The notes beneath the pieces are model-generated. The model was not told the origin of the DNA. It ran no database searches and saw only the letters and a list, made by a program, of their open reading frames with translations. Positions 1 through 62,685 of a stretch of 64,000 bases of DNA are shown piece after piece. Position 1 is the first letter of the stretch; the number at the start of each line of letters is the position of its first letter. Source of the stretch: Panagrolaimus kolymaensis (taxonomy: Eukaryota; Nematoda; Chromadorea; Rhabditida; Panagrolaimidae); the NCBI GenBank assembly GCA_028622995.1, contig JAJQJQ010000046.1:1674001-1738000 (forward strand). The letters are read 5' to 3'. The position numbers and the translations under genes were made by a program.

Positions 1-499
1 TGATGTAAATTTGTTACAAATTTTTTTGGGAATAAAGCTACAAAGAAGTTGAAAAAATAAAAAGATTGGAACCTTAAAATCAAAGAGTTGGGTATAATAA
101 TTAATGAAGATAGATTTTAAGAGAAAGAAAACTAACCCATTGATAATAATGAATTTCAAAATCTTTTCGTTTTTCCACAGCTGGAAAGTGTTCATTCTCA
201 AAGCTCAAATAATAAGTATTTTTATTTGAACCTAAAAAGCGTGATTAATGGTTAGAAAAAATAATAGGTTAATTAAACAAAAAAAACTTACAATGACTTT
301 CAATATATTTTTCCCATTTCGATTTATATTCCGCACCTAACCAACATTGAAGAGGTTGACCAACATATTGTTTCATACCAATAATCACGATAACAATGAG
401 AAATAAATAACTGGTGTAAAAATAATTTATGCGATCAACGAAATCATCATCATATTTGGGTTTAATATTCTTTTGAATTTTATCGGAACCTCTAATCAT
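1..499 (-). CDS. Innexin, N-terminal part (cut by the window edge)
   Basis: Innexins form invertebrate gap junctions and hemichannels in the plasma membrane. Three exons are visible on the minus strand: 499-292, 231-137 and 72-1, joined in phase (208 + 95 = 303 bases). The first holds the classic N-terminal signature: DDDFVDRINYFYTS, then a first membrane segment, then KQYVGQPLQCW with the first extracellular-loop cysteine, and later ESHC. The second exon ends in YYQW and the third begins VPIFLFFQLL, which together make the family's YYQW(V)P motif before membrane segment 2. All three exons stay open to the edge, and the rest lies outside the window. Introns fall after ESH (within the Cys codon) and after YYQW, unlike the other two innexins here, where the intron falls before the W. 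It is divergent from the innexin at 1101. Family assignment is firm; the subtype is unknown. Confidence 0.93.
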
Positions 500-1100
500 T
501 TTGTTGTTTTTTTAGTTGCAAATGAAAATTAAGCTTGGATCAAACTAACCAAACAAAAAAAGGGTGAATGAAAAAGATTTGGTGAAAAAAAAATTAGTTA
601 AAGAAAAAATATACAAAAATAAAGAAACAAATTAATTGTTACCGCATATTTAGGGCGAGGCTAACACTTTAACCAAATAAGTATGCCATAATGGAGCAAT
701 CAGATAACCCATAAGAAGGTAAGTGAAATCCAAAGCAAAAGGCAAGGTTCAAAAATGCTTTTGAGGGTAAATTTTCTTTCGTTTATATATGTATTTTCGC
801 CGTATCGCCGTACTTTTTTTTATCTCTCTATTTTTTGTTGTTGGTTATTTATCCCTCTTGCTATTATTATTATTATTATTATTTGTTGCACTCTAATCTT
901 TTTTGATATCTTCTTGATCGTTTGTTTTCATTAGAATTTTTTTAAAGGTTTATATTTCCATCCATAAATATCGGCTACTACTTTTTTTGCACTCCTATTA
1001 TATTTTCTTTTACTTCTCTTATTTTATTCGTCGCTTAAAAAAGTTTGTTATACCTTCGATTTTCTTATACAACAACGATATTTTAGCCTTTCATCAAATT
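500..1100. promoter_or_regulatory. Intergenic space between two divergent innexins
   Basis: About 600 bases separate the two start codons, so promoters for both genes should lie here. I see T-rich tracts and an ATT repeat (about 863-882) but no motif I can name. This is inferred from gene orientation only. Confidence 0.35.
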
Positions 1101-2880
1101 ATGTCCCTCCAAGGATTTCTTAAAACAACTATAAATTTTGATGAAGATCCTTTCGATAAACTCAACAATGTAATCACTTCATATATTTTGTTTTTCATTG
1201 GATTCTTTTTATTTGCATCGGAATATAATGGCAATCCCATGAGATGTTGGGGTAAACCTGAATGGGTTTCATCATGGCATGAATATACTGAAGATATATG
1301 CTTTATTGAAGGCACATATTATGTTGATATAAATGATAGACTTCCAAATAGCTATCATGATTTGATTACAAAATATAAGAAAGTCACTTTTTATCAGGTA
1401 AATTAACTATTCGACATTAGGGAATTAATTGATAAAAAAAAATTTAGTGGGTTCCATTTCTTTTTTGTTTGATGGGAATTCTTTTGCAATTACCCCGCTT
1501 CTTTTGGTTTTTTGTAAATTGGTCAACATGTAAGTAATTATTTCTGCTGATAACTTTTATTTTAATTTTTTGTTTGTTGTTGTAGACATGTATCTCACAG
1601 AATTTTGCGAAACTGCAGTAAAAGTTTCCCATTTCAAAACTACTTCCAAAAGTCATTTTATGAATATTTTAATTCGTCATTTTCAAGATGTTATTGATCG
1701 AAAATGGAAATTAAAATCAACCCAGAAAAAAATGAAGGATGTTAAAGGCATTATTAAACGTTCTTATTGGTCAGTTTTTTTTCTTACTTCCATAGTCTCG
1801 AAAAACTTTTTTTTCTTCGAAATTTTTTTAAACATCCAACTTTTTTCTAATTCATATTTATTTTAGTCTCTGGAATAATTATATTACTCCTCGCTCCTTA
1901 TTTATATCATATCTCATTGTTAAAATTTGGAATATTATCAATAATGTTGCAATTGTAAGTTTTTTATCCCTAGCTTCCAAAAAAAGTAAATCTATTCATT
2001 CACTCACCTTCATCATATTTTTTAGTTTTTCATTTTAACCATTCTCGTTGCGGATCAAACAAATGCTCCATTTGCATTTTCAATAATTAAAAATTTGATT
2101 TATGGAGTGGATTGGCGTGAAACGGGTTTATTTCCTCGAGTTACAATGTGTTCATTTCAAGTTCGAGAAATGGGAGAAAGTACGTTAACTAGCATTTCAC
2201 GAAAAACTGTTCAATGCACTCTTACCGCAAATATTTATATCGAAATGGCATTTATAATTATTTGGTGTTGGTTAATTATTTTATTTATCGTAAATATTTA
2301 TGGATTTTTGCAATGGATTTCTCGCTCCTTTAATCGCAAAAATGATGCATTTTTGAAGGAACTCATTTTGAATGGAGTTAATTATGTTGATTTTGAAAAA
2401 CACAACAACAACGAAAATAACAAAAATGATGATGAAAAAAATCCTCTGATTCCAAATGTAAGTTACTACTAACCTTTTTTTAAACCAAACTTTATAAAAG
2501 CTTTTTACTTTTCTATTTTCTAGAATGCTGATTTAGAAGAACTCAAAAAAATTGAAAAAGAAAATTATTTAAATTCTGCAAAAGAATCAGCCACAAAATT
2601 CGGCGAAAAAACTCGTATCTCCCAATTTCGTAAACATCTTGGACCCGATGGAATTCTAACCCTTTATATGATGTATTCCAATGCTGGCTGTTATGTTGCT
2701 TCACAAATTGCAGCAATTTGTTTTTATGATTTTATTAAAGATCCTAAACACAACGACAATACAGCCGCCAAAAACTTTTATGGTGACTTTAAAATTGAAA
2801 AGTTGGTTAATTTATTTTATCCAAAAAAAGAATGGATTTATAACAATATATATTTATTTCAGAGACATTTTGGACGATGA
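1101..2880 (+). CDS. Innexin, complete six-exon gene
   Basis: Gap-junction/hemichannel subunit with four membrane segments. Exons read in phase: 1101-1397, 1448-1529, 1586-1769, 1867-1954, 2026-2457 and 2524-2880, giving 479 aa. Family marks visible: RCWGKPEW and EDICFIEG (two Cys of extracellular loop 1); YQ|WVPF at the exon 1/2 junction; KIWNII in the third hydrophobic segment; FPRVTMCSFQVREMG with a later VQC (two Cys of loop 2); a fourth hydrophobic segment around IIIWCWLIILFIVNIYGF; and the C-terminal LGPDGILTLYMMYSNAG helix region. An Asn/Asp/Glu-rich linker (around HNNNENNKNDDE) is inserted before the last exon. The start at 1101 is chosen because it gives a usual innexin N-terminus; the open frame continues upstream to 987. 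Its introns match those of the transposon-borne innexin at 60999. Confidence 0.93.
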
Positions 2881-5186
2881 TTCAAAGAAAATCAATGGAA
2901 TCAATGGAAAAGGCTTTAGTCTTCCTCCTTATTCTCCACTATCATGCTAATAGCCACCCGACTTTTCCAAAACATTTATTTAGCTCAAATCTTTTGGATT
3001 TTTTTTCTTACTTGTTTGACTTGACGACTTTTCATTATCAAAAATTTTGTTTATTTATTCCTATCTTTGTTGATACATTTCTTATTTTTTACTTTTATTT
3101 CACCTTTTTTTTATGCGAGAAATTTAGTAATAATAAAAAATTCGACTTAAATTATTAGCATTTTTACATTTCTAGAGTTTCAACAAAAACCATGGTAAAG
3201 AAAAATTGACAAGAAAAAATTAGAGAAGAAAAAATACGAAGAATATGAGGCGTTAAAAATATTGCGTAATCAAAAAAATCGTATTAATGAATTTTAGCTA
3301 ATTTTTAAAAAATATCCGATTATTGTAACGAAAAATTAAAATAAGATAAAAAGAATTTGATCCCACAAAATTAACTTTATACTTTTAAAATTATTGGTGC
3401 AGTCAATAATTTGCTGGGGCGATACATATTTTATAATTGGTAATAACGGCTAAATGGGATGTTGGGTAAAAATTTTCAAATAATTTTTTATAAAGCAAAA
3501 CCCCAGCTATTAAGTTTCATTAAAATTCGTTAAAAAAATAGTTTTACTTATTTTATACTAAAGAGCGAACAAGCTTATGTACACGCATCGTAAAAACCAA
3601 GAAATTTTTTAAATAAAATATTCAAAAAGCAACTAAAAAACAGCATCATTTTGGACGAATATTTTCTTATTCAAGGAACATAAGAGAAAGAAGTAATCAA
3701 TAAAGCGACAAAAAACAAAAAAGCTGTTGATTTAATTTTTATTTTCATCGAACAATAGAGTTGCTTTAAATTATTTTAAAAAGCTTTTTTAAAAGACCTA
3801 TTTTTCTTCTTCTTAACAATCTTGCTTTTTAACAAATTCTGTTCTCCTCCTAGAAATTGCACCGAAAAAATAAACAAAACATGGGCTTTCTATAATTAAA
3901 TCAGAAAAAGTGATAAACGAATAACTGAATCAAATTTTTTTGTTGTGTTGCGTATTTTTGAATAAAGTTTTATCTTCAAAAAATTACTGAAATTGCAACT
4001 TTTCAGCAAAAGACTTTGATAAATTTGAGTATGCTAAAATTAATTTATTAATGTTCATTTTGAAAGAGCGATTAATTGATAAATTATTTTATCTTTCGAA
4101 AAGGTTTGTTGCATTTGTTTCACGTTTTTGACAAATTTTGTTATACATAATTTCTTCTTTAAACCGTTATTATTTTTTTATTTTCTAATTTACCAAAGTG
4201 GTTTATTAAATCAGACATGGTTTGGGTTTGCGACAAATATTAACTAAAAAAATAAATAAAACGAGAATAAAATATTCAAAATTTTTCTAAGTTTAAAACC
4301 AAATTGCTTTTTTTGTTTTTAAGCTTAAACACTCGACCGCTTTTTTTTAGTTTTTTGCTTTTAAAGCAAAAAAAAAACAAAAGTTATTTCTGCCGTGAAT
4401 GACGCAGCATATTTTTTCTTAACTGAATGTTAAACAAAAACAATAACAAAAAAAAGGCAGAGAAGGAAAAGCGACAATCAATAAAACGAGAAACGAGAAA
4501 CGAGAAAAATAGACAACTGCAAAGCTAAGCAGCGCTTTTTTCTCGTAGTTTTTTTCTAAAAACTTTTTTGAATATTTGAGCTCTAATTTTTTTCATTCAA
4601 TTTTGTGTAACAGCTTTTTAATCAATAAAGTTTAATACTTAAAAAGGTTGATATTTTCAGAAGAAATTTTTTTAGCTTCTTTCATTAATAAAAAAAACCA
4701 ATGAGAAAATTATCAGGCAAATGAGTTGGCTTGAATCGTTTATTAAAATATTATTAAAAAAGGAATTTACTGTGATGATATATTCGACGAATGTTATTTT
4801 TAAATTCATTTTTACTTCAATAAACTTCAAACCCACAAAATTTGTCGATTGCTCATTTTCAATTTTTCTGTCACGATAAATTTTTTATTAATTTTTTGTT
4901 GATAGTAATTTGCATAAATCAGGAAAAGTAATTTTTGACACAAAACTTTTTAAAGGTGTTTTTTTTTTTTGCAACATCATTCATCGATCCTATTTTGTTC
5001 CGTCATCCGATACCTCACAATCAATTTTCTTTTAAACTTTTGCTTTATTAATAATTAATTAATTTATAAATATATATTTTAAAAATTATTACATAATATT
5101 ATAATTATTTATTTTTACATGTCATACATAGTTGGCTTGCTTTGTTGTTGTACCATAAAAGCTTCATCTTTTCATTCATTTGTTTT
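2881..5186. other. Intergenic, no gene seen
   Basis: A 2.3-kb A+T-rich stretch between the innexin and the MLT-10-like gene, which ends toward it. I found no long frame with splice support. Three near-perfect copies of ACGAGAA lie at about 4484-4509. Nothing else stands out. Confidence 0.6.
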
Positions 5187-55600: not shown

Positions 55601-55608
55601 AAAAATTC
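55601..55608 (+). repeat. Target-site duplication, left copy
   Basis: AAAAATTC directly abuts the left end of the Mutator-like element. The identical 8 bases follow the right end at 62678-62685. Eight to eleven bases is the normal size for this superfamily. Confidence 0.85.
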
Positions 55609-55666
55609 GGGGAGAGAACACTTGCCCGACGGTGTGAAAAAAGTGTGAAAAGTTGCCCGACCTGGC
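55609..55666 (+). repeat. Left terminal inverted repeat
   Basis: Begins GGGGAGAGAACACTTGCCCG and contains two GCCCGAC words and two GTGTGAAAA words. It pairs with 62620-62677; the single mismatch in the inner 48 bp is at 55632. The outer 10 bases are less well conserved (5 of 10). Confidence 0.92.
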
Positions 55667-55704
55667 AAAAAGTAATGAATGACAAGTGTGAAAAAATGAA
55701 AAGA

Positions 55705-55715
55705 GCGTCGGGCAA
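55705..55715 (+). repeat. Subterminal inverted copy of the TIR core
   Basis: GCGTCGGGCAA is the inverse of the TIR core TTGCCCGACG at 55622-55631 and lies 40 bases inside the left repeat. It can fold the left end into a hairpin, as described for some Phantom/Foldback-like ends. No such inner copy is obvious at the right end. Confidence 0.6.
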
Positions 55716-55887
55716 AAAAAGAAGCTCTTTAAAAGTTTCAAATTTGTGAAATTTTTTATTGATTTGTTTCAAAAATATATGCATAAATTTATTTACATTT
55801 TAAAACTATTATCGCTCGAATTTAATTACCTTGTTAACCAATTTTATTTTTTAAAAATGTTGCAATTATTTTTACATTAAAAAAAAG

Positions 55888-58800
55888 CTAAAAAGACACA
55901 ATTGGCTCAAAATGGTTCCCATTAACATAATCGACAAAAAGAGAAGGAACATTATTTACTGCTTTAACAACTTTATCTTCCGTCATTGTTAAATGGGGCG
56001 CAAAAATAAAGCCGTTGTTACTTGGGTATCTAAACCAAATATTTAGACCAATTAAATCAGATAAGCCATGGGCATCGTCGTTTCCGGCCCAAAGCTCCAG
56101 TGGTACACCTTCATTTTTGTAAAGCACTTTTAAAATTTCATCACGTTTTCGTTCAAATTCTTTCACGATTTTTGCGGAACCAATACTATGAATTGTTAAT
56201 CCATGTTTGATGATATGGTCATAAGTTCTTAATCTTATTTGCCAGTGGTGTCGTTGATTTCCAGTTAACAATACTGAAGCTGAACGAAAGAAGCAATGTC
56301 CATCACCCCTTGCTTTACCTTTTCGAAAAGTCAACGGATTGTACACATTATTCGAAGCGGTTAATAAAGGAGATTCTTCAACAAGGCTTGGATCTAATCC
56401 CAACCGCTTTAAAGATTCTATGATTTGATCTTTTGAAGGAGAATTAAAATAAACGTTAACATCATCATTTGGTATTATTCCACCTGGACGAAGTTTTTGA
56501 TTGTCCTTTTTTTGAGAATTTAACATATTCTTGCTTGCCATAACTCGAAGATTATTTATACCATCGACTTTATCCATATCTTGCTGAATTTTTGGTTGAA
56601 GTTTAACTTCATCTTCAACCACTTCCACGCTTTCATTTGCCTGAACAGAATTTAAAAGACGTTTGTTGAAGTTTGATGTTTCTGATTTAATTTTATTTTG
56701 AATTTCTGGGGCTTTAAAATTCAAAAAATCTTCTCTTCTTTGTTCACCAGTAAGCTCATCAATTAAGGCATTAGCTTCGGTAATAGCTGACCAATCAAAG
56801 GGAATGGTTTCATTTAAACTTTCGGACAAAAGTTTTTGAACTCCATTATTTTCTTCATCACCGACAATATCTGCTTCATAAGTTCTTGATGCTTGTTCAT
56901 CGAAAGTTTCATTCATCTCCAATTCGACCATTTTTTCGGCATTTTCAATAATTTTGTGTAAATCTTTTGATTTTTTAAAATCATAATCTTCATAATCCTC
57001 AAATAAATCTTCAGCATTATCAGCTTGCTGTTGAGTAGCAGTTGCTTTTGCGGATTTCATAGTCATCAAACTTTTGTTACGAACTTCATGTAATAAATAG
57101 GAAATACGGGAGCAATGCCTTGCTTGAATTTCCAATAGTTCTTCATCGCTTGCATTCTATAAAAAGTAACAAATTTTTAAATGTATTTCTCTTTTTTATT
57201 GCTTTAACTTACTCTTTCTGAAGCTTCTTCCATAGCTTCAGAATAATGATCTTCATATGAACTAATTCTAACTTGAAGTTCCGCATATTTTTTATTTTTG
57301 GGCTTTGGTTTGATTTTTCCATCCAAAAATTTCAAAATCCTCGATTCAGTTTTAGAAAACATTGTTTGTTGAATTTGTAAAAATACTTTATATTTGGGAT
57401 TTTTTGGAATAACCATTGGAAGAAAGCTGTGATATCCCTCGCATACATTGGTGTTTCTTTTATTGAGATTGAAAAAAGAGAAAGTATTTCCAGCCTTTAA
57501 TCTTGGAATCCAAGTACGGTTCATATAAGCCACTATTTGTTTCAATTCTTTTGTGGGCCAATGTTGAGGATCAACATTTACAGGAACTGGTGGAACTTTA
57601 CTCAAAACATGTTCCCAAAAAAAAATAGCATCATTTGCAGGAAGCATTGGTAAAGCTAATTTAAGACGGAACCATCTCCTGATAGAATCGAATTCAGGCT
57701 TTCCTTTTTTTCCAGCCATATAATGATCGTAAAGCCCTTTGCTTTTGATGTATCTTAAGAAAGCCTGGTCGAAATGGAAGAGGCAGCCATATACTTTATC
57801 AGCCCCATTGAGTTTTTGAAGGGCATTTAAGAGCCCATTCTCATAATCGCAATGTACACGATCAAATTCTGGTTGGATACCATATTCTGCCCATTTTTGT
57901 TTTATTACATTTATGATGGTTTCATAAGTTGCTTGATCTTTATTAACCATTGGCGCCATTAAAAGTACATTCCATTCTTCACCAAATTCTGTTTTAACAA
58001 GGCCATGAATATAAAAAGTTTGTGAGAACCCATATGGGGCTGTACTAAATGTAGCGTCACATGCTAATGTTTTTGAAGAAGCCATTATCCTAAGTGCTTG
58101 TTCAGATGCAAAAACAGCAGTGCCATTATCTTCATATTGCAACCAATCTAATCCTTGCAAAAGTTTTGAATGCTCTTGTGCAATAGTTCCTGGTATACTT
58201 GAAGGTAATAATTTACCATGTAATCTTTGCAATACCTTTTTTACATCAATATATTCTTCCAATTCATCTTGAATTTTTTCCATCACAGCTTGTTTGAAGG
58301 CCATATTATGGGCATCGATCGGTTTAACATTCCTTAATACATCCTTGCGCATTTGTGTTTTGATCTTCCTTAATTTTTGTTCATTTTGTGGAATTGGGCC
58401 TTTGCAATTGATTGAATGATTAAGTTCAACATAAAAAATTTGGTTTATCATGTGAGCTTTTGATGCATCTTTTGCTTTTCGAGGACAACGATTACAGTGA
58501 TAATGTACTTTTTTTCCACGACTTTTACTTACTGTATAAGTGAAGAATTCACCTTTAACTTCTGCAAGCACAGTGGAGTTTTTGAGTCTGATATTTTCAA
58601 TAATTTGATATGAAACTTTGAGACGGCCATCTTTATCTTTTTCGTCTGAATTGCCGATTGCGCCATTGGTGTTTTGAACATAAACATTATCATTATTTAA
58701 ATCAATATCATTATCGTCATGATATTCTGCAGCTGGAAGCTTAGGATCAATATTTTCTTTGATGGATGGTAAAAAATTTCTAATATTATTCAATAAATCT

Positions 58801-60678
58801 GGAAATAATTCTTTATTTCCTTCAAGCTCATTTAACAAGCTTCCGGCCATTTTTGCTGTTTCAATACATGAATTTTGGAATTTTATGAGTTTTTGTGCAA
58901 AAGCTTGGGCTTCTTTATTTTTGATAGCATCCGATGCCGTCGTTTTTAAAGAATTAAAAAGGCTTGGATTTTGAAATGACAGTTTTTCAGGGACTGTGGA
59001 AGAAACAGCACTTTTATCTTCATAGCTTGTATTAGTTAAAAAACTTTCATTTAAACCTTGATCCATTTCCATTGATTCTTTTTTTAAAGTTGGAAATAGT
59101 AATTTATGAGTTTCTGAAGGTTCGGGAACTGCTGAAGAATCACTAATTTGAGGAGCATTTTGGGATTCGAAGTCCATTTGAAATTCATCAACAAATTCTA
59201 ATTTCTTTTGCTTCATTTTATTTTGTTTAGCTGATAAATACTTCTGCAATACGCCACGAACAGAGCCTTTTGTTACACCATATTTATTGTTTGTAATTTC
59301 GTTAATTTCAGTAGCGCATTTTTCATAACGTTTTGATTGATTCGTTCCTTGAAACTTTGAATATTTTTCAAGAACTGGTTCCAGTAAAGGGTCTTCATGA
59401 ACAGGTAATTTATTGTAAGCTAAAGGTCTCATCCTAATAAACTCTTTTGGTGGAGCATTGATTTTTTTAGCAATATAATTAATAGGTTTTTTTTCTTTCA
59501 TTTTTTGATTATTGGGCTTTTTTATAGAAGATAATTTGCTTGCTTTGTTGTCTGCACCACCATAACACTTATATACGAATTCACTATCGTTTTTATCTAA
59601 ACAATTCTACTATTAATGAAACATTCAAATATTTTTTCTTACCATTATCATTTTTAGAAATTAATGAATCAAATTTTATTTCAGGTAATTTTGCTTGACC
59701 TTTTTGCTCTAAACATGGGGAAATTAAAATAGTCTAAAAACTAAAACATACTAGGTGTAAATTCCGGAGTTTGATATGTTTTTTTTATTTTGTCCAATTC
59801 ATTTAAATCACTTGATTCCTTGGATGAGATTATGGGAGTTTCAGAGGTTTTCTCTTGCTTTTTTTCAATAAATGGCATTTCAGATTTATTTTTGTGGTCA
59901 ATGCTATCATTCTAAAAAAAATATATTCACTAACAATTAAAAAGCTTTAATTAAAAAATCTCACCATTATTTCATTTTTGTTTTTGATTTTGGTTATTTT
60001 TCCAGCAATGATGTTGGGTACTTGCTAAAAATTAACACGATTTTGATAAAACTTAAAAATCAAAAATCAAAAAAAGCTAAATTTAAGGTTAAACCAAATA
60101 GACACATTATGTATTATTTAAATTCTCACCTTTACTTTACTCATAAATGAATCAAATAGTGAATGGGATGGTGCCGATCGAGTTCGCTGTTGAACACATT
60201 TTCGAATTCTTGACATTCTTCGTTCTTTGACATCCTCTGAATCCTCCTCTTCATTTTCAAGAATGAAGGGTTCTTTTGGTTCTTTATGATGGGTTAGCTG
60301 GATATCTTTTAAAATTTTGAAGCAATTTGGTTTCTGGATTAATGGTTGATTTGTTTGAGCGATATCATTTCCACCACTATTTCCTGTTGCATTTCTTACT
60401 TGTGCTGCATTTTGTAATAAATTTTGAGCAGCTTCCATTGGATCAATCTTTATACCCTCTTTGGTTGCTGGTGGTTGTTGAATTAAATGGGAAGAAGATT
60501 GAACACATGTATTTCGGGATGAACTTGAAGAGGAAGAAATACGAGAATTTTGAGCAGTTTGAATAGGAGGATTATTCATTTCCTTTTTTAAATTCTTAAG
60601 GCTTTCCATCATTTGGGTTGGAACTTGAGGATCCAAACCCTTTGAAGATCCATCTTTCGATTTGCCATAATTAAACAT
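55888..60678 (-). CDS. MULE transposase fused to an OTU cysteine protease
   Basis: Six minus-strand exons in phase: 60678-60130, 60024-59965, 59911-59752, 59708-59643, 59596-57213 and 57156-55888 (1,495 aa). The N-terminal 280 residues are Ser/Asn/Lys-rich. Near residues 605-675 a FLYWCH/WRKY-GCM1 zinc finger shows CNRC and HSINC ligands. The MULE DDE domain follows: CDATFST (first Asp, about 792), HCDYENGL (second Asp, about 861), GCLFHF (the C..H motif) and NVCEGYH (Glu, about 998). The last exon adds an OTU domain with GDGHCFFRS (Asp and nucleophile Cys, about 1358-1361) and a late GNHFEPI His. All catalytic residues are present. The transposase and OTU parts are joined by a 56-base intron with GTAAGT and TTATAG borders and no phase change, so one polypeptide is predicted. 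No stops or frameshifts, so the element is probably autonomous. Confidence 0.9.
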
Positions 60679-60998
60679 GGCTAAAAAATATTTAAGCCTT
60701 TAAAAAAAAGCAAATCAAAACAAATATACACGATATTTATTTTTATATTGTACTTAAAAATTTTCTAAATAAATTATTTTTCTTCAAAGAAAAACACTAA
60801 TGTACAATTTTTTGGTGTGCTTTGCGCAATGCTTTTTTTAAATGTCAAGAAACAAACAATTTGCCGTCTTTTTTGATCTTTTTATTCGGCTGTCTACTTT
60901 GATGAGAATAAAAAAAAACAGTCATTTGCTGAAAAAATTTCCATTTTATTTTTGCTTAAATTTCTTGGAAATAAAATCGATAATTTGACTGTTTTAAA
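60679..60998. promoter_or_regulatory. Shared bidirectional space inside the transposon
   Basis: Exactly 320 bases separate the transposase ATG (60678) from the innexin ATG (60999), so promoters of both genes must lie here unless 5' UTR introns exist. I see A+T-rich sequence but no recognisable elements. The close divergent layout suggests linked control; that is inference. Confidence 0.5.
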
Positions 60999-62308
60999 AT
61001 GCTCGAATGGATATTGAGGCCAACTACTGGAATTGGTTATGTTGATAGACTTCTTACTCAATTCTTAGCATTTTCTTTTATAATCTGTGGCACGTTTATG
61101 GGTTATAAAACCTATGGAAAAGGCGGTATTAACTGCTTATCTAAAGCAGATTGGGTTGATTCATGGATCGGCTATGCCCTTGATATATGCCTCGTCGAAG
61201 GTTCATATGTTGTTTCTCAAAACCATCCACTTCCACCAACATATTCAGAACTTTTGGCGTCCAAAAAGATAAAATATTATCAAGCAAGTTTAAACTTTTA
61301 TTTTAATTGTTTCCAAGTTGATTCTTTTAGTGGCATCCTATTCTTCTTATCATTTATGGCGGGTTTTTGCATCTACCTTTAATCTTTTGGGCATTTGTAA
61401 ACACTTTTGGCTGTAAGCGTAATAAGTTTTTTTGATGAAATGTATTTAATGATTTTATAGATTTTAATTGTGAAGCTTTTTGCAAAGCTACAAAGCAAGT
61501 TTTAAAAGGCCCTCACAAGGCTATTCTTTTTCAACGAAATGTAAATTCATTTGGACATAGTTTATTCGCTCCAGTGCCTGAAAGAAAAAAAAGAAATTGT
61601 TGTGTAACTATTTTCATGTAAGTTTAGATAATTATTTTCTAGTAAAAGCTTGAATTTTAGTTACCTCTTTAATTTATTGGAAAATAGTTATTTACCCGCC
61701 CTTTATTTATTTTTTAAAATTTGGAATCTTTTTAATATTGTTATTGTTGTAAGCTTTTCTTCATTTAATTCAATGGACTTAAGTGATTTTAAATTTACTT
61801 TTAGTTTTTTGCCATTAATATTTTTTTTACTGAAGATGATGAAGATATATTTGGAGTATATACAATGGTTGGATTATATTCAAATAAATCAACTGCTTTT
61901 CCATCTGTTACAACATGCTCCTTTCTTGTTCGCGAAATTGGCAACTCAGATCTTACAAGTATGAGTAAAAAATCCATCGATTGCTCATTGATTTTAAATT
62001 ATTTATATAAGAAAGTTTACATTTCTTTATGGTTTATTCTCCCAGCATTATTCATAGTAAACACGTGGCAAATTTTAACGTCACATGCAAAGTTGTTTAC
62101 CAATAAAAGAAGCTATTTAACACGGCTTTTAATATCGGGAGATGTTGTTATTAATGAAAGTAATGTAGCAGCTGTGGATGATTTCGTTAAAAGTTTCAAC
62201 TTGAATTGCCTTTTTGGTATCAAAATGTTGGAACGTACGATGGGTTATTCTTTTGCTGCAAAAACTGTTGTGCAACTTTTTAATGATTTAAATAAAGCTT
62301 GCTATTAA
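60999..62308 (+). CDS. Transposon-borne innexin, full length
   Basis: Five exons in phase: 60999-61283, 61331-61412, 61461-61617, 61661-61748 and 61805-62308 (371 aa). Innexin marks: INCLSKADW and DICLVEG (two Cys of loop 1); KYYQ|WHPILL at the exon 1/2 junction; FWAFVN; FCKATKQV in the cytoplasmic loop; KIWNLFNIVIV (third hydrophobic segment); FPSVTTCSFLVREIG with SIDC (two Cys of loop 2); a fourth hydrophobic stretch (LWFILPALFIVNTW); and a C-terminal helix region aligned with that of the innexin at 1101. Exons 2 and 4 are 82 and 88 bases, exactly as in that gene, and intron positions agree. Intron 1 has a GC donor (CAA|GCAAGT) with TTTTAG acceptor. All four loop cysteines are kept and no break is seen, so the channel could be functional. 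It lies wholly inside the terminal repeats. Confidence 0.92.
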
Positions 62309-62619
62309 TTTTTTTATTTCGCTTTTTCTTCTCTCTTAAATGATCCTTAAAATAAATATTAAAAACTTTATTATAATTCAACAGCAAAAAAATACACTAT
62401 CAACAAGCAAAAAATTCCAAACAAGGTATTGGTAAATATTATTAAGAAAAAACAAAAATATTTTTGACATAATTAGGTAAAACATTAGTCAAAAAACATC
62501 GACTAAATCAAAATGTCTAAACCATTTTATTGCTGGAAAATATGGCGAAGTTGCTTTTGGAAAGAGAAAAGAGAAAATTGCTTTTCAAACTTTCCGCCAT
62601 TGGCGTTGATGCGCCTTTA

Positions 62620-62677
62620 GCCAGGTCGGGCAACTTTTCACACTTTTTTCACAGCGTCGGGCAAGTGAGGGCTCACC
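62620..62677 (-). repeat. Right terminal inverted repeat
   Basis: Read inward on the minus strand it begins GGTGAGCCCTCACTTGCCCG and ends CCCGACCTGGC, matching the left repeat at 52 of 58 positions. Confidence 0.92.
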
Positions 62678-62685
62678 AAAAATTC
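62678..62685 (+). repeat. Target-site duplication, right copy
   Basis: AAAAATTC, identical to 55601-55608, directly follows the right end of the transposon. Confidence 0.85.

Follow-up and report, generated by a model that had tools for sequence, protein, structure and literature searches.

Cut-and-paste transposons are expected to carry only the genes for their own mobility, and host genes captured by them are normally fragments. Some Mutator-like elements (MULEs), in which target-site duplications (TSDs) span 8-11 bp, hold extra genes, namely mudrB in MuDR and VANC in VANDAL. Like the gene described here, these two genes and the protease of KI-MULE are second genes that move along with MULE-type ends, perhaps to the element's benefit; to our knowledge, none of the three is a channel or membrane gene. 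Here we analyze a 64,000-nucleotide stretch of DNA from the nematode Panagrolaimus kolymaensis (assembly GCA_028622995.1, contig JAJQJQ010000046.1, positions 1,674,001 to 1,738,000; the whole stretch is called the window below), in which a 7-kb transposon at 55,609-62,677 holds an open transposase gene and a complete innexin gene with four introns between the same terminal inverted repeats (TIRs).

The sections of PMC8277862 drawn on here report that KI-MULE carries a protease, that the median captured piece is 224 bp in Pack-TIRs and 305 bp in Pack-MULEs, that no Pack-MULE turned up when 100 animal reference genomes were surveyed, and that Ssk-FB4 of Drosophila, a Pack-MULE in fly populations, is the first potentially functional coding Pack-TIR. 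Plant Pack-MULEs and animal Pack-TIRs resemble the P. kolymaensis element in that host-derived sequence lies between MULE-type ends and has multiplied with distinct TSDs. As described in those sections, they are non-autonomous and mostly hold small pieces, whereas the present element has a transposase, and its captured gene is complete, has four introns and is under constraint. The relevant section of PMC6431247 calls it exceptionally rare for Helitrons, as for Pack-MULEs, to capture a gene in full length. Phantom and other animal MULE groups, together with Tm1 of root-knot nematodes, are likewise animal or nematode MULE-type elements with TSDs of 8-10 bp (8-10 bp in Phantom, PMC6446971; 9 bp in Tm1, PMC3169594), and the sections of the two papers that describe them mention neither an OTU domain nor an innexin. 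Innexins on mobile or viral DNA are described for two kinds of virus, again in the sections drawn on here. Expression of the vinnexins of ichnoviruses alters host physiology, but these genes belong to a wasp-delivered virus and not to a transposon (PMC8402728). Majaniviruses, which are endogenous nimaviruses of shrimp, have innexins that are also inherited in a mobile lineage, and some of their eukaryote-like genes contain introns, but each is a large DNA virus and not a 7-kb transposon (PMC10871703). In searches of open-access papers we found no report of a transposon carrying an innexin and none on Mutator elements in Panagrolaimus.

We consider it highly probable that the element is an autonomous Mutator-like transposon with two divergent genes, one for a transposase with an OTU-like domain and the other for a complete, intron-bearing and working innexin. 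With distinctly less assurance, we lean toward the view that the transposon lineage has long had the innexin as a second gene, selected for helping the element by way of a channel between cells. The features are given below in window coordinates; exon models are predictions built without transcripts.

55,601-55,608, no strand: left 8-bp TSD AAAAATTC, present as a single copy at the empty sites on contigs C4 and C43
55,609-55,666, plus strand: left TIR, 52/58 matching with the right one
55,888-57,156, minus strand: transposase exon 6, OTU-like cysteine-protease domain (GDGHC and NGNH motifs; weak Pfam and PDB scores)
57,213-59,596, minus strand: transposase exon 5, zinc-finger-like part and DDE catalytic core (CDATF, CDYE, GCLFHF, CEGYHS)
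59,643-59,708, minus strand: transposase exon 4, from the gene model
59,752-59,911, minus strand: transposase exon 3, from the gene model
59,965-60,024, minus strand: transposase exon 2, from the gene model
60,130-60,678, minus strand: transposase exon 1, start codon at 60,678, 73% identical in amino acids to a locus on contig C13
60,679-60,998, no strand: 320-bp spacer between the two divergent start codons, presumed to be a two-way promoter
60,999-61,283, plus strand: innexin exon 1, followed by a GC splice donor (gene model and Pfam)
61,331-61,412, plus strand: innexin exon 2, 82 bp, equal in length to exon 2 of host innexin H1
61,461-61,617, plus strand: innexin exon 3, from the gene model
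61,661-61,748, plus strand: innexin exon 4, 88 bp, equal in length to exon 4 of H1
61,805-62,308, plus strand: innexin exon 5, stop codon at 62,306-62,308, AATAAA at 62,351
62,620-62,677, minus strand: right TIR
62,678-62,685, no strand: right 8-bp TSD AAAAATTC
1,101-2,457, plus strand: host innexin H1, outside the element, first five exons modelled, used as comparison gene

An earlier note on this DNA had claimed both TIRs, an 8-bp TSD outside them, an undamaged transposase and an intact five-exon innexin between the repeats, and each of these claims held. Alignment of 55,609-55,666 with the reverse complement of 62,620-62,677 gave 52/58 matching positions, and arms taken to 65 nt were 88% alike; the word AAAAATTC flanks the element on both sides. 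On the minus strand, the transposase gene extends from 60,678 to 55,888; its six exons have clean splice sites and encode 1,495 amino acids with no internal stop. The innexin gene occupies 60,999-62,308 of the plus strand and encodes 371 amino acids, which match the Pfam Innexin profile (PF00876) with E 2.2e-35 over positions 3-332 of 333. AATAAA is present downstream of both genes.

Copies were sought in the 265.8-Mb assembly, and all copy counts are lower bounds. The P. kolymaensis assembly is described in the relevant section of PMC10374039 as triploid and 266 Mb in size, with 856 contigs and 49 mitochondrial contigs. The left 112 bp of the element was found with 100% identity at a minimum of 16 places, each having a right end ~7.06 kb away except for one at 4.1 kb, and the 16 copies so delimited are 99.2-100% identical to the window copy. 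Because the copies are so alike, the burst that produced them was recent. Two of them (L009 and L020) share flanks and represent one site on two contigs, leaving 15 sites. The 8-bp flanks are exact in 14 of the 16 copies, that is, at 13 of the 15 sites; the chance of such a match is ~6e-5 per site, and with 16 copies found, 14 of them with exact duplications, the element is not a chance arrangement. L012 and L023 have an identical duplicated word and different flanks.

The innexin is present in 16 of 16 copies, and its protein is identical in 14, with one change in L023 and a one-base frame shift in L022. Thirteen copies have an open transposase, the remaining three having a stop (L021), a disruption (L022) or a loss of part of the gene (L024). 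The earlier note had proposed the innexin as cargo, to be recognized by several copies with the same order of parts and different target duplications. This is what the 15 sites provide (13 with exact duplications, one near-exact, one without), and we conclude that the innexin is real cargo of the mobile element. Two subfamilies were distinguished by a 10-bp indel at 60,979, in the spacer; their innexins have a single difference, which is silent and at a third codon position. In L024 (G000:C1:4223664-4229764), positions 56,997-59,964 are lost, removing 2,968 bp of the transposase gene, and the ends, TSD and intact innexin are kept; this copy is a natural non-autonomous innexin carrier.

The Pack-MULE label was ruled out for the element as a whole, since the transposase is present and the captured gene is complete. 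Pack-MULEs are defined as lacking a transposase, a form that only L024 has among the copies, and as carrying fragments of host genes, which does not describe an innexin covering nearly the whole Pfam profile.

Empty sites were looked for at eight of the 15 sites. When joined, the flanks of the window copy align with C4:1,523,123-1,523,403 (90%) and C43:142,266-142,546 (89%), both unbroken across the target and with a single AAAAATTC, and on either side the sequences stay 82-87% similar for over 1.2 kb. The other seven sites were judged by hit coordinates only, with 40 of 229 candidates scored, and four of them have uninterrupted counterparts. These lie on C15 and C39 for L017 (both 99%) and on C6 and C32 for L024 (99% and 97%). 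For L012 the counterpart is elsewhere on the same contig, C45 (92%), and so is a paralogue, with another on C43 (90%); for L015 counterparts are on C48 (87%) and, over a shorter stretch, on C50 (94%). The presence of two empty counterparts at most of these sites fits three haplotypes. According to the earlier note, an innexin predating the insertion would be seen at an empty site; the opposite was observed, the empty sites being without innexin. Taken together, the 15 sites and the empty counterparts indicate that the element is mobile as a unit.

The cargo protein has the conserved motifs that we take to mark innexins, namely two cysteines in each extracellular loop (C46, C64, C242 and C264) and YYQW at the second transmembrane segment (TM2). 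The four cysteines are invariant in an alignment with the C13 and H1 innexins, as is the YQW part of YYQW (residues 93-96). A Kyte-Doolittle scan exceeded the threshold in three regions only, read as TM2, TM3 and TM4, TM1 being weaker. In the PDB, the protein matched Innexin-6 (E 2.5e-7). The donor of intron 1 is GC and those of the remaining three introns are GT. Compared with H1, the cargo gene shares all four intron positions and phases (0, 1, 2, 0) and the lengths of exons 2 and 4 (82 and 88 bp), at a protein identity of 33% (110/335). Because four introns match in position and phase, the innexin was captured as genomic DNA, and a retrocopied innexin was ruled out on the same ground. H1 serves as a comparison gene only and is not claimed as the donor. 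It belongs to a pair of divergent host innexin genes in the window, at 1-540 (minus strand) and 1101-2950 (plus strand), and the introns of the plus-strand gene are arranged as in the cargo; its minus-strand neighbour was read from the letters, with a weak tblastn match (E 0.018). A search of a public protein collection with the cargo innexin gave no match at E 0.001 among 841 candidates, and one with an alignment of three innexins gave none among 1,766; known innexins were not returned by either search, so these results carry little weight. Viral contigs gave no innexin match with six exact peptide patterns, a search that could reveal close relatives only.

In the transposase, CDATF, CDYE, GCLFHF and CEGYHS presumably mark the DDE core of a MULE, and similar motifs occur in relatives on contigs C98 and C13. 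GDGHC and NGNH are assumed to belong to an OTU protease domain; the C13 counterpart has GDGSC and DDH. The C-terminal exon matches PDB entry 4bou (OTUD3) weakly, with E 0.0096. The sole match among 2,375 candidates in a protein search with the transposase core was Panagrolaimus davidi A0A914QHC9 (UniRef, named "OTU domain-containing"; E 2.2e-69, 33% identity), which was compared as a protein only and for which the Pfam MULE score (E 0.0009) is also under the cut-off. An AlphaFold model of the core had low confidence (predicted local distance difference test score 47) and was not used. The earlier note's term "Mutator-like" is backed by the motifs, by the P. davidi relative and by two MULE-type traits, the TIRs and a TSD of MULE length that is exact in most copies; the Pfam MULE score, given below, is under the curated cut-off. 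The transposase probably bears a C-terminal OTU-like domain.

Two further loci bear on the history of the element. The C98 sister element (L026/L030, G000:C98:51928-59691) is 7.76 kb long, with its own TSD (CAAATTTC) and TIRs ~94% alike to each other, and shares 3.1 kb of the transposase gene with the innexin element at 90% DNA identity; its OTU exon contains a stop. No innexin match was found in it, and where the innexin would be it has other open reading frames (ORFs), for example one of 223 amino acids with no Pfam match above the cut-off. The earlier note had held that copies lacking the innexin would argue against cargo status. None of the 16 copies lacks it; one sister, the C98 element, does, and with ends 83% alike and other ORFs it is a weaker form of that case. 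This comparison suggests that the innexin slot may be exchangeable.

The other locus came from a DNA search with the innexin half, which returned the 16 copies, a 0.5-kb piece on C8 (97%) and one locus at 75% on C13, C11 and C15; a second search with the C13 gene returned nothing further (21 of 21 and 20 of 20 candidates scored). The C13 locus (L041, G000:C13:678600-688599) and the copies at C11:675214 and C15:3161128 were taken as alleles of one locus, the C11 copy being 99.9% identical to C13 over 2,522 bp. The C13 innexin is open, with 372 amino acids and the same five exons and GC donor as the cargo, and is divergent to a transposase with OTU motifs. The locus lies ~150 bp from a VPS4-like gene and beside a kinase gene, both read from ORFs only.

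The N-terminal transposase exon (73% of amino acids) and the innexin are shared between C13 and the mobile element, and the transposase core is just 31% alike. By DNA search, the mobile-type core is found in the 16 copies (L024 partly) and on C98, besides two short pieces on C31; the C13-type core is found on C13, C11 and C15, besides a piece on C26 and weak short matches. Because a sister transposon at 90% identity is without the innexin, the element looks mosaic. From these similarities, it looks like a recombinant of two lineages, with a core and OTU half of the C98 type and an N-terminal and innexin half of the C13 type.

The C13 and cargo innexins are identical at 260 of 370 residues (70%). 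Nonsynonymous (dN) and synonymous (dS) substitutions per site are 0.18 and 0.67, a ratio of 0.27, and differences are distributed over the codon positions as 72/47/124 (p 5e-9). The main transposase exon compared with its C98 relative also has a dN/dS of 0.27, over 764 codons, so that the innexin and this exon are constrained to a similar degree. If one innexin branch were neutral, it could hold only ~0.13-0.18 of the dS of 0.67. In simulations of neutral drift, 0 of 1000 innexin genes stayed open at 0.155 substitutions per site and 2 of 1000 at 0.1. The branch limits and simulations together indicate, on a rough clock, that both innexin lineages were constrained for most of the time since their split. 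Note that this estimate of constraint compares the mobile element with a single immobile locus.

Three other explanations of the arrangement were weighed. The window also contains host innexins at a distance of 58-60 kb, and a host innexin might have come to lie inside the TIRs by coincidence or by misassembly. We assign this a negligible probability: the same order of parts recurs at 15 sites, mostly with separate TSDs and with empty counterparts, which rules out both a chance neighbour and a misassembly, and by DNA the innexin occurs only in the element, at the C13/C11/C15 locus and in the C8 piece. It is also quite improbable that the innexin is a passive passenger, captured by chance, unused by the element and intact only through the recent burst. 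MULEs are known to take up host sequence (as stated in the relevant section of PMC6446971), the near-identity of the copies and the one silent difference between the subfamily innexins are what a recent burst would leave, and a gene would often survive a short neutral stay (at 0.02 substitutions per site, 215 of 1000 simulated genes did). Set against this, the innexin is fully open and yet only 33% identical to H1, few genes survive neutral drift of 0.1 substitutions per site, and the ancestry shared with the C13 pair, at the dS and dN/dS given above, largely counters the idea. The dN/dS and the simulations thus disfavor a simple recent capture of a passenger.

More weight, within what we still regard as unlikely, is due to the explanation that selection acted at an immobile locus like C13 and that the gene was then recombined onto the element, the selection being the host's. 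The C13 locus is found on three contigs, has no recognizable TIRs and has its innexin and the examined transposase frames open, and the innexin half of the mosaic element resembles it. It could be a domesticated transposase-innexin pair, in which case part of the constraint would be the host's; from its gene content, co-domestication of transposase and cargo there is possible. Against this explanation, the C13 innexin adjoins a transposase-OTU gene with its motifs, so that the two already formed a unit of transposon type. Among the three alleles, the one on C15 loses similarity within the last exon, which speaks against a strict host need. A dS of 0.67 means that the mobile innexin is no recent copy of the present C13 gene, though it may have been transferred from another, unseen relative.

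Several results weigh against our own reading of a long-standing second gene on an autonomous Mutator-like transposon. The C13 locus shows no recognizable TIRs. This immobile locus, or an earlier home of the mobile copy, could account for some of the constraint. Transposase exon 1 compared with C13 has a dN/dS of 0.55 and a dS of 0.26; as this dS is below that of the innexin, exon 1 and the innexin diverged unevenly, and its closeness to C13 also favors an origin at a host-selected locus. The simulation at 0.02 substitutions per site allows a short neutral stretch. The C15 allele is 96% identical to C13; its intron 4 contains an insertion, and within exon 5 the similarity breaks off. Over 286 codons, it differs from C13 by 18 synonymous and 20 nonsynonymous changes. 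Both Pfam scores of the transposase (MULE E 0.064, under the curated cut-off; OTU E 0.055, also under the cut-off) are weak, single exons having been scanned. Three of the eight sites tested are without a clear empty site: L014 sits in a repeated family and is not informative, and no uninterrupted counterpart was found for L010 and L023 among the 40 candidates scored, so that these misses mean little. L010 has no target duplication. L022 has near-exact flanks, shifted within a run of A, and many single-base insertions. In this copy (G000:C2:10127597-10136701), 36 bases are inserted, 35 of them in the left 4.5 kb, and none is deleted outside the 10-bp subfamily indel; judged from this pattern, the insertions are perhaps raw-read error or poor consensus and not decay.

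The history of the innexin can be summed up as follows. It was acquired as genomic DNA with the intron layout of a nematode innexin gene, was long maintained while diverging from the innexin of the C13 pair under purifying selection, and was carried to at least 15 sites when the whole unit spread in the recent burst. It would be a working second gene, driven together with the transposase from the common 320-bp spacer. Its product probably forms or joins channels where transposition pays, most plausibly in the germ line or early embryo, and would thereby alter coupling or hemichannel activity in those cells, by analogy with viral innexins that change the physiology of infected insects.

Such a complete four-intron channel gene, accompanied by an open transposase in a recent burst in an animal, departs from the usual load of a transposon. 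If the element benefits from the channel, transposons are able, like viruses, to influence communication between cells. As a long-standing gene selected in the transposon lineage, it would make transposons, after ichnoviruses and majaniviruses, a third and independent class of mobile DNA that retains an innexin, and would point to cell coupling as a recurrent target of selfish elements. The near-identical copies and their empty counterparts make the idea testable.

Related ends were also found elsewhere in the assembly. A lone end, 92% alike to the left end (L025, G000:C205:25540-25645; also at C8:4178501), is 18.7 kb distant from a full copy, and neither a partner end nor a transposase was found in the stretch read. 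Three elements of 2.2-2.6 kb (L027, L028 and L029, on contigs C32, C27 and C18) have ends 83% alike and gave no transposase match; from their ends and sizes, they are likely non-autonomous relatives. L029 has no matching flanks, L027 has only runs of A, and L028 has matching 8-bp flanks.

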